Shown in pieces: positions 9,428 to 12,487 of a stretch of DNA of 35,262 nucleotides. The stretch lies in NCBI GenBank assembly GCA_016927895.1, contig JAFGLT010000106.1, positions 1 to 35,262 on the forward strand, read 5' to 3'. How positions within the stretch are numbered: the stretch's first letter is position 1; the number at the start of each line of letters is the position of its first letter. Both the position numbers and the translations under genes were made by a program. The notes beneath the pieces are model-generated. The model was not told where the DNA came from. It searched no databases and worked only from the letters and a program-made list of their open reading frames with translations. The DNA comes from Candidatus Bathyarchaeota archaeon (lineage in GTDB: Archaea > Thermoproteota > Bathyarchaeia > Bathyarchaeales > Bathycorpusculaceae).

Positions 9428-9769
9428 TCAAAATATGGTTTTTGTGAATTCCCACAGCTCTTCTCTTGAATCCAGTATGGTGTCTATGGTCTCTTTTCCT
9501 TTTTGGGTTAATCTGTATACTCGTTTGTTTTCAGCTGCTTCGCCCATTAATAGGTGCTTGCGTTCCATCGAATATAGCAAAGTATAGACAGTGCCTGAGC
9601 TAAACTTGAAACCAAATTTGCTGTGCACTACATCAATGAGTTCGTACGCGCTTAACGGTTCATTCTTTCTAAGTTCTGCCAAAAAAATTGTTTCCAAGTA
9701 ACTCTTTACAATTTTACGCCTTATTTCTTCTAAAACTTGGTCTTCCAAGGCTTCTCCCTCCTTTTTCAT
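9428..9769 (-). CDS. PadR-family transcriptional regulator
   Basis: FLAELRKNEPLSAYELIDVVHSKFGFKFSSGTVYTLLYSMERKHLLMGEAAENKRVYRLTQKGKETI. Confidence 0.88.
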   Translation of the reverse strand: MKKEGEALEDQVLEEIRRKIVKSYLETIFLAELRKNEPLSAYELIDVVHSKFGFKFSSGTVYTLLYSMERKHLLMGEAAENKRVYRLTQKGKETIDTILDSREELWEFTKTIF

Positions 9770-9976
9770 AAGCGCCTAGTTTTTACCATAAACATTGTCT
9801 GGTCGAAGTTTTTTGTAAACGCGCCTTTTGGTTCTTCCAAGGCTTATATATGTTTATTCTTTTGCTAAAATGTATGCGCGCTTATTAAGATTGTTAAAAA
9901 CTTGGGTTTGGCTTTAAGGCATGCCTGAATTGTTTGGGGGGCTCGACTGTGTGCTTTGGGATGCAATTGTACAAAC

Positions 9977-10012
9977 TACTTTGTAATGCAAAGCTTTATA
10001 TTTCACAAAGTA
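9977..10012. promoter_or_regulatory. inverted repeat TACTTTGT-N20-ACAAAGTA flanking a TATA-like element
   Basis: TACTTTGT 9977-9984, ACAAAGTA 10005-10012, enclosing TTTATATTT (9995-10003), about 35 nt before ATG 10036. Confidence 0.5.
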
Positions 10013-10035
10013 AATTATGTAATCAGGTGAAAACA

Positions 10036-10674
10036 ATGACAAAACAGAACACCTTGAGAGAGGTCGAGAAAAAAGCATACATGTCCTACCATCAAGACGG
10101 CCTGCTGGACATATTCATCGGACTATACGCTATAGCTTTCGGTTTAGGCATAGTCGCAGACAAGGTTCTAGATTTCAGCTTTGGAATAATCATGCCTGGC
10201 ATCTTAATTGCGATAGTGCTGCCAATCTGGCTTCAAGCAAAAAGAAAAATCACCATGCCCAGAATCGGCTACGTGAATTTCGGAACACGCGGATCAAACA
10301 AGCTCTTTGCCCTCTTATTAGGCTTATCAGTGGCGGGTTTAGGCGTCTTCTTCTTGTTCACTATGGCAACATTTCAAGACGGCAGACCAGAGTGGATTGA
10401 GACCATTCTCTTTCAATACGGCATGATCTGGATAGGCTTAGGAGCAGCAGTCATAGGAAGCCTGTTCGCCTACACTATGGGACTTAAACGACTTCACGGG
10501 TATGGCCTGTTAACACTTGCGCTGTTCATCAGCGGCTACTTCCTCAGTGTCCCCTTCGAATACCTCCTACTAGTCATAGGCAGCGTAATCATAGCAAGCG
10601 GCACAGTACTGCTAGTGCAGTTCACACGTCGTTATCCATTGCAAAAAGGTGCCATTGCCATTGCCTCCCAGTGA
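10036..10674 (+). CDS. polytopic membrane protein
   Basis: MTKQNTLREVEKKAYMSYHQDGLLDIFIGLYAIAFGLGIVADKVL... with several TM segments; ATG 10036 after AGGTGA preferred to 9934. Confidence 0.75.
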   Translation: MTKQNTLREVEKKAYMSYHQDGLLDIFIGLYAIAFGLGIVADKVLDFSFGIIMPGILIAIVLPIWLQAKRKITMPRIGYVNFGTRGSNKLFALLLGLSVAGLGVFFLFTMATFQDGRPEWIETILFQYGMIWIGLGAAVIGSLFAYTMGLKRLHGYGLLTLALFISGYFLSVPFEYLLLVIGSVIIASGTVLLVQFTRRYPLQKGAIAIASQ

Positions 10675-10972
10675 CGAAGGAATACAAAACATCGACAGGC
10701 TAATCCACGAGCCCTCCCGGCTAATCATAATGATGCACCTTTACGTTGTTCAAAGCGCTGACTTCCAGTTCCTCCAACACCAAACGGAAATGACGCCGGG
10801 CAACCTGTCTTCTCATCTGCGGAAGCTGGAGGACGCTGGCTACATTGAAGTAACAAAGGACTTCGTTGATAGGACGCCGCACACAGCATTGAAGCTGACA
10901 AAGAAGGGCAGGGAAGCCTTTAAACAATACCGAAGAGACGTGAAGCGCTTCATCGATAAGCTACCTGAGTAA
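10649..10972 (+). CDS. winged-helix transcriptional regulator (ArsR/MarR-like)
   Basis: IHEPSRLIIMMHLYVVQSADFQFLQHQTEMTPGNLSSHLRKLEDAGYIEVTKDFVDRTPHTALKLTKKGREAFKQY; overlaps the upstream gene. Confidence 0.85.
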   Translation: MPLPLPPSDEGIQNIDRLIHEPSRLIIMMHLYVVQSADFQFLQHQTEMTPGNLSSHLRKLEDAGYIEVTKDFVDRTPHTALKLTKKGREAFKQYRRDVKRFIDKLPE

Positions 10973-11138: not shown

Positions 11139-11163
11139 CCTGTGGGCTGGAGAGGTGCACAGG
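11139..11163 (+). promoter_or_regulatory. hairpin CCTGTG-N13-CACAGG presenting an SD-like sequence in its loop
   Basis: CCTGTG 11139-11144 pairs with CACAGG 11158-11163; loop GGCTGGAGAGGTG contains GGAGAGGTG, just before GTG start 11165. Confidence 0.4.
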
Positions 11164-11164
11164 G

Positions 11165-12487
11165 GTGAGTAGGAAGAGAAGCAGACATGGTGACTTCCGA
11201 AACTTCATTTTGCTCGTTTTGATGAAAGAGGGTCCGCTTGGTCTATCTGAACTATATCAAAAGAAGTCTATTTTGACCTCTCAATTTGAGATGATTGGTA
11301 CAGAGTTTGGTACACGAATTGTCTCTGGTCTTTTTTCCAAGTTTGGGCGTCCAGCTCCGCTTCGTTCTAGTAGAGTTAAGCTAGAAGAGGAAAAACAACA
11401 AATTGATATCCAATTTGAATGCGAAAGTTTGCAGGAATGCCGTCTTATCACGATGAATCAAACGGGCAAGTATGAACTCACTGGGAAAGGAACAGAAAAA
11501 GCGAAAGAGTTCGAGAAAGGCTTGAAGAAGGGGGCAGAGATTCTTGAAGGTCAAGTTCTTAATCCACATGCTGCAGCTCGCAACACGGTTCTTATCGACT
11601 TTTTCCTTGCTACATTGAAACTCCTTTCAGGTATTTTCAGTGGAAGTGTTGGCCTCTTAGCTGATGGTGCCGACGCCGCAGTTGACACTATTTCAGCTGC
11701 AATAGTATGGTTGGGCATGAAAATTAAAAGAGAAAATTTGGGAACCTTCATTGTTCTTGTAATGATGTTTGTCACTGGCATCAGCGTGGGCTACGACTCG
11801 ATTATATCCCTTATAGACGCTTTCCTTGGAATGCTGTCTCCTTTAGCTATGCCTTACTTGGTAATTTTAACTGAAATTGTTGCACTTATATTTGCCACTT
11901 TACTTTTTCTGTATCAGAGATTTGTTGGCAAACGGAACGGCAGTTTAGCGCTTATCTCGCAGTCAATTGACTCTAAAAATCACATATACGTTGCTGCGGG
12001 AGTCATCGTAGGTGCGGTATTTTCAATTTTCGGTATACACTTTGTAGACGCGCTTATAGGAGGTTTTATTGCTGCTAGAATCCTTGTAGACGGCATAAAA
12101 TTATCAAAGGAAACCATTGCCTCAATCAAAGGAGAAGATGTAGACTTAGCTAAATATGAGGTTCCATTTGAGAGACATTGGAGATTAAGCAAAGTCGAAA
12201 CCTTCAGAACTTGGATATTATACTCTGTCAAGGAACTCAAATTGAAAACAAGAAATGAACTTGTAAATGAGCTTAAGGCCACATTTAAACCAGAATACGT
12301 TCCCATATTATCCGAGTATAAGTTTATGTTAGGAGAAGGTGTTGATTTTGATGACTCCTTCGATGGTCTTGTAACGCCATTAATTGAAGAGGTTCTTTTA
12401 AACAAACAGAAAGAAGAATTTATAATTACAGAAAAGGGAGCAAAACGCGTAACTGAACTAACCAGGAACCTTAGATTTCTCCAGTAA
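11165..12487 (+). CDS. CDF-family cation transporter with N- and C-terminal winged-helix-like domains
   Basis: N-terminus LLVLMKEGPLGLSELYQK...LITMNQTGKYELTGKGTEKAKEF; CDF core VLIDFFLATLKLLSGIFSGSVGLLADGADAAVDTISA...LALISQSIDSKNHIYVAAGVIVGAVFSIFG..FVDALIGGFIAARI; C-terminus TRNELVNELKATF...LIEEVLLNKQKEEFIITEKGAKRVTEL. Confidence 0.8.
   Translation: MSRKRSRHGDFRNFILLVLMKEGPLGLSELYQKKSILTSQFEMIGTEFGTRIVSGLFSKFGRPAPLRSSRVKLEEEKQQIDIQFECESLQECRLITMNQTGKYELTGKGTEKAKEFEKGLKKGAEILEGQVLNPHAAARNTVLIDFFLATLKLLSGIFSGSVGLLADGADAAVDTISAAIVWLGMKIKRENLGTFIVLVMMFVTGISVGYDSIISLIDAFLGMLSPLAMPYLVILTEIVALIFATLLFLYQRFVGKRNGSLALISQSIDSKNHIYVAAGVIVGAVFSIFGIHFVDALIGGFIAARILVDGIKLSKETIASIKGEDVDLAKYEVPFERHWRLSKVETFRTWILYSVKELKLKTRNELVNELKATFKPEYVPILSEYKFMLGEGVDFDDSFDGLVTPLIEEVLLNKQKEEFIITEKGAKRVTELTRNLRFLQ

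Follow-up and report, generated by a model that had tools for sequence, protein, structure and literature searches.

The gene at positions 11165–12487 (+ strand) of the window, the window being the whole 35,262-nucleotide stretch of contig JAFGLT010000106.1 that was analysed, encodes a protein of 440 aa in which a CDF (cation efflux) core of six TM helices lies between two winged-helix domains. This three-part architecture, assigned from the reading frame, the relatives and an AF2 model, is confirmed, and the family that carries it is both wide and old. It is proposed, with middling confidence, that the family is a CDF branch in which a winged-helix pair replaces the ferredoxin-like C-terminal domain (CTD) as the module for dimerisation and control, around a core that binds ions and probably transports them. 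Control of CDF transporters is ascribed to their ferredoxin-like tail and to a loop communicating with that tail, and the CTD of YiiP and MamM has the role of joining the protomers and of sensing or gating. Because the cation efflux model matches strongly and the winged-helix models match weakly, the unusual ends can easily be overlooked. No description of a fusion between a winged-helix or other DNA-binding domain and a CDF protein was found in the open-licence literature.

The reading frame starts with GTG, runs, as had been stated in the preliminary description, for 440 codons without interruption, and is preceded by a probable ribosome-binding site, GGAGAGGTG, 7 nt 5' of the start codon (11149–11157, +). 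The overlapping frames on the opposite strand are all shorter. The genome also contains two ordinary CDF genes. It should also be noted that the window holds a gene for a multi-pass membrane protein overlapping that of an HTH_34 winged-helix regulator (9934–10972, +), which together with a PadR gene (9428–9769, −) brings three regulator-type folds into 3 kb.

The six-helix membrane core comprises residues 134–321 (11564–12127, +). Pfam model PF01545 was matched by residues 142–320 (E 1e-17; 65.1 bits against a cut-off of 26.6) and, at the search threshold, by 18 of 18 and 38 of 38 aligned members, with NCBIfam TIGR01297 narrowly below its cut-off (81.5 vs 82.35). A sequence search of the PDB with the window protein matched FieF/YiiP, and a Foldseek search with the AF2 model identified a YiiP-like six-TM fold with 18 YiiP/ZnT matches below 1e-3, which bears out the CDF-type core described earlier for the middle of the protein.

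Alignment with FieF/YiiP and Bathyarchaeial CDFs placed one half of metal site A in TM2, as a D-xxx-D motif (11672–11686, +) formed by D170 (11672–11674) and D174 (11684–11686), and alignment placed the other half in TM5 (11969–11983, +), formed by D269 (11969–11971) and H273 (11981–11983). This TM5 pair reverses the canonical H-xxx-D order, so that the full set reads D-D-D-H versus D-D-H-D. Comparison with 13 ordinary CDFs from the same class shows that the winged-helix family keeps D170 and D174, while in TM5 D269 replaces H or N and H273, S, A or G replaces D, with S, A or G as the fourth ligand in one of the Bathyarchaeial subgroups. The commonest set among the Asgard members is E-D-D-N, followed by D-D-D-H and E-D-E-H. 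Nearly all members with an intact module have an acidic residue at 170, D174 and an acidic residue at 269, the exception being L016, in which D174 is changed to G. As far as the alignments allow this to be judged, the four site-A positions still form a polar cluster that is mostly acidic, and the core is likely to have retained the binding of a divalent metal ion and probably its transport. Some of the cores need not transport, given the S, A or G ligand of the one subgroup and a dead site in the double-module proteins described below. Since the branch that diverges first in the core tree (L092, 1–1041, +) keeps the canonical H-D-H-D of ordinary zinc CDFs, the ligands of site A appear to have changed once the winged helices were already in place. 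L092 has a winged-helix C domain and a short loop despite its canonical site A, and the contig end truncates it at the N-terminus.

The usual CDF tail domain, which the preliminary description had noted as missing, was indeed not detected: none of the 18 Bathyarchaeial-type members matched PF16916 (ZT_dimer CTD), and the C domain is modelled as a winged helix. In the set of 38 aligned proteins only two matched PF16916, as many as the control CDFs (L122 and L123) which this set includes. The TM2–TM3 loop is 14 residues shorter in all members of the family than in ordinary CDFs, with a spacing between D174 and M201 of 28–29 residues in every member as opposed to 42 in all 13 ordinary Bathyarchaeial CDFs. 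In YiiP, this loop holds site B, touches the CTD and moves with it through the transport cycle (PMC10617992). The joint loss of loop and CTD would be expected if both function as a unit.

The N-terminal winged-helix domain comprises residues 1–131 (11165–11557, +) and was assigned from the AF2 model and its homology to the C domain. The C-terminal winged-helix domain, which stands in the place of the ferredoxin-like CTD, comprises residues 334–439 (12164–12481, +) and was assigned from AF2, Foldseek and the missing ZT_dimer match. The AF2 model, a monomer computed with an 18-sequence alignment, had a mean pLDDT of 74 for the whole protein and of about 80–91 for the winged-helix cores. Residues 8–131 and 334–439 each follow the order helix-helix-helix-strand-strand-helix, the former with a low-confidence insertion at residues 39–78 (11279–11398, +; alignment and AF2) that is found in the subgroup of the window protein and is mostly missing from the other Bathyarchaeial subgroup. 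The last helix of the N domain (107–131) leads almost straight into TM1, and the linkers between the winged helices and the membrane are very short in the model (about 3 and 13 residues). Modelled alone, the C domain had a pLDDT of 80, and the nearest PDB folds in Foldseek were the winged helices of MarR, PadR and O-methyltransferases, with weak E-values of which none was significant. This agrees with the earlier suggestion of a second winged helix at the C-terminus.

In a profile comparison the N and C domains aligned end to end (93 columns, E 5e-6), with no alignment of either to the profile of the core. The two winged helices are thus homologues, most likely descended from one ancestral domain. 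The closest Pfam family is HTH_45, matched in the window protein by the C domain only (residues 403–434; 18.6 bits against a cut-off of 25.5) and more strongly in relatives (best E 1.4e-6). The N-terminal domain had been described as PadR-like, of which the winged-helix fold is supported by the model and by the homology of the two ends; PadR identity was rejected as no Pfam model supports it, with none of 18 members matching PF03551 at E 0.1 and no match in the N domains either.

In the class of the window, 257 genomes were searched and the protein was detected in 17, in 16 of them as a single open frame. The copy in the remaining genome, G090, is a pseudogene (L070, 5036–5918, −) whose N domain is disrupted by a frame shift and several stop codons, and the gene is therefore dispensable enough to be lost. 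Most of the other genomes lack the protein, including two of the same genus, so the gene is accessory. Two further Thermoproteota genomes (G291 and G425) also encode it. Among the Asgard archaea, the phylum of the Sigynarchaeota MAG G580, about 38 of 228 genomes gave long profile matches extending into the C-terminal winged helix, in frames of 450–700 residues and often with two to four copies per genome, four being the maximum. Judged by these sequences, the Asgard branch is large and diversified. Full-length relatives with the same three parts are thus found in Bathyarchaeia, other Thermoproteota and Asgard archaea. A near-Bathyarchaeial copy on a Sigynarchaeota MAG contig of 4457 bases (L031) may have been misbinned or recently transferred; Asgard copies of greater divergence are independent of this contig. 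The C domain is tied to this protein, as its profile found nothing outside it at E 1e-3 across the class and no standalone relatives. A viral origin was rejected since no relatives were found in viral contigs, and a role as a defence system was rejected since PADLOC yielded weak winged-helix matches only.

Several Asgard members have further parts. Double-module proteins of 680–696 aa (L085, 841–2928, −; L086, 811–2892, −; L087, 737–2779, −; L088, 726–2792, −) contain three winged helices that alternate with two six-TM modules, the first of these degenerate and the second intact, and resemble a covalent heterodimer with one metal site dead, most clearly in L085 and L087. Another eight loci (L098, L100, L101, L102, L109, L111, L113 and L116) encode an N-terminal extension of about 150–200 residues in which TM helices abound, with two copies arranged head to head in L101.

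In a FastTree phylogeny of CDF cores, the winged-helix family formed one clade (support 0.94). Over seven pairs, whole-gene dN/dS was 0.13–0.22, with comparably low values for the N, TM and C parts. Purifying selection acts on all three parts, and both ends therefore matter to the organism. These results also bear on the explanation that the architecture is an artefact, either of an assembly error joining two neighbouring genes or of a wrong start codon adding the N domain. The genomes are metagenome-assembled, which would allow for such errors; however, the same fusion with the same boundaries occurs in independent genomes of two phyla, selection is seen over all parts, and a start-site artefact is ruled out because the relatives start near the same residue as the window protein. 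The artefact, which is almost certainly the wrong explanation, was rejected on the basis of these independent full-length copies. The preliminary description had allowed for termini of another fold or for homologues lacking them; both termini are modelled as winged helices and the homologues carry them.

The winged-helix fold most often serves to bind DNA, and winged helices also act as plain dimerisation domains, for example in O-methyltransferases. The putative recognition helices of the window protein are acidic, with a net charge of −4 in the N domain and −5 in the C domain. Across 19 Thermoproteota-type members, helix 3 of the C domain had a mean net charge of −2.8, with no member above 0, and in the Thermoproteota branch the N-domain helix 3 averaged −1.4; the C-domain helices 3 of the Asgard members are on average neutral. 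Soluble winged-helix candidates at the same loci averaged +0.8, a comparison with five controls only, one of them doubtful, in which the rows of the family are mutually related. Neither helix 3 contains an invariant basic residue in the alignment. The acidity of helix 3, read from the sequences, weighs weakly against DNA binding.

No operator-like inverted repeat was found upstream of the gene in the window, and no metal regulon or consistent target-like neighbour was found in the neighbourhoods compared, the neighbours differing between groups. At five loci of relatives in the subgroup of the window protein (L062, L073, L074, L075 and L031), the next gene upstream has the same orientation, overlaps or is closely spaced, and encodes a class I SAM methyltransferase, which is absent from this place in the window. 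An RPA-like OB protein is the neighbour in one genus, where synteny suggests an old vertical context, and in Asgard genomes a nitroreductase or ICMT-like methyltransferase is found. An ICMT-like membrane methyltransferase gene overlaps the gene on the same strand in a Thermoproteota genome (L072, 4566–5045, +), and one adjoins it divergently in two Asgard genomes (in one of them at L133, 10830–11390, +).

The main rival explanation is that the protein is a membrane-tethered one-component transcription regulator, in which the CDF core would bind or move a metal ion and its conformational change would be passed to winged helices that bind promoters at the membrane; this is considered possible, at a likelihood well short of even. 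Each chain has two winged-helix domains, and basic arms (RKRSR, KRRR) are seen at the N-terminus. A single Asgard genome may contain as many as four diversified paralogues, many paralogues per genome being common among regulators, and the double-module proteins keep the degenerate CDF module together with its winged helices. Membrane-bound regulators are also frequent in archaea, with about four transmembrane transcription regulators per genome (PMC10269533). Against these points stand the acidic or neutral charge of the C-domain helix 3 across the Thermoproteota branch, the lack of any invariant basic residue in both helices 3, the upstream region of the window without an operator-like repeat, the missing target-like neighbour and the shortness of the linkers to the membrane. 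The fuller version, that the core senses or counts ion flux and thereby sets DNA binding of both ends, as a regulator family that radiated in Asgard archaea and Bathyarchaeia, is rather doubtful. The regulator suggested in the preliminary description, tethered to the membrane and linking metal flux with DNA binding, is thus a putative one, with the acidic helix 3, the lack of an operator repeat in the window and the non-metal neighbours speaking against it and DNA binding kept as a possible function.

A further explanation is that the winged helices bind another macromolecule and bring it to the membrane, with the core mainly an anchor; the partner could be a protein such as a chaperone or a transcription-machinery subunit. 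Winged helices often make protein contacts and the putative contact helices are acidic, both of which would suit such a role, but the strong constraint on site A in most members would be needless for a mere anchor, and this explanation is regarded as unlikely.

The evidence accounts for the protein without requiring DNA contact. In the preferred explanation, replacement of the CTD by a winged-helix pair, a monophyletic archaeal CDF branch has lost the ferredoxin-like CTD along with its partner, the TM2–TM3 loop, and carries in its stead a related winged-helix pair, one per end, around a core that would retain binding, and probably transport, of a divalent metal ion. Both ends would be cytoplasmic because the core has six TM helices, and the pair may join the protomers and sense or gate, as the CTD does in YiiP and MamM. 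Dimerisation through the winged helices is inferred, the AF2 model being a monomer. The branch represents a natural replacement experiment on CDF dimerisation and gating, in which tail and loop were dropped together and winged helices gained. If the ends do bind DNA, the family would be a regulator built from a metal transporter and widespread in Asgard archaea, the archaeal group closest to eukaryotes.

When compared with known systems, the family shares with YiiP/FieF and the ZnTs (PF01545 + PF16916) the six-TM core fold, the D-xxx-D of TM2, a polar or acidic TM5 pair at the site-A positions and, by topology, two cytosolic termini. It differs from them in lacking the ferredoxin-like CTD with its site C, in the shortening of the loop that holds site B, in having a winged helix at each end, and in its TM5 motif, which is D-xxx-H, D-xxx-S/A/G or D-xxx-N instead of H-xxx-D. 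The CDF and NifX-like (Nitro_FeMo-Co) fusions of the same archaea also combine a CDF core with an extra C-terminal domain, but these (L122 and L123) retain the ZT_dimer CTD and the long TM2–TM3 loop. Transmembrane regulators such as ArnR, BcrR, ToxR and CadC resemble the family in having a fold of the DNA-binding type and membrane helices in one chain (PMC10269533). Unlike these, it has membrane helices that form the recognisable core of an ion transporter with the metal site kept, the winged helices lie at both ends, helix 3 is acidic in the branch of the window protein and DNA binding is putative.
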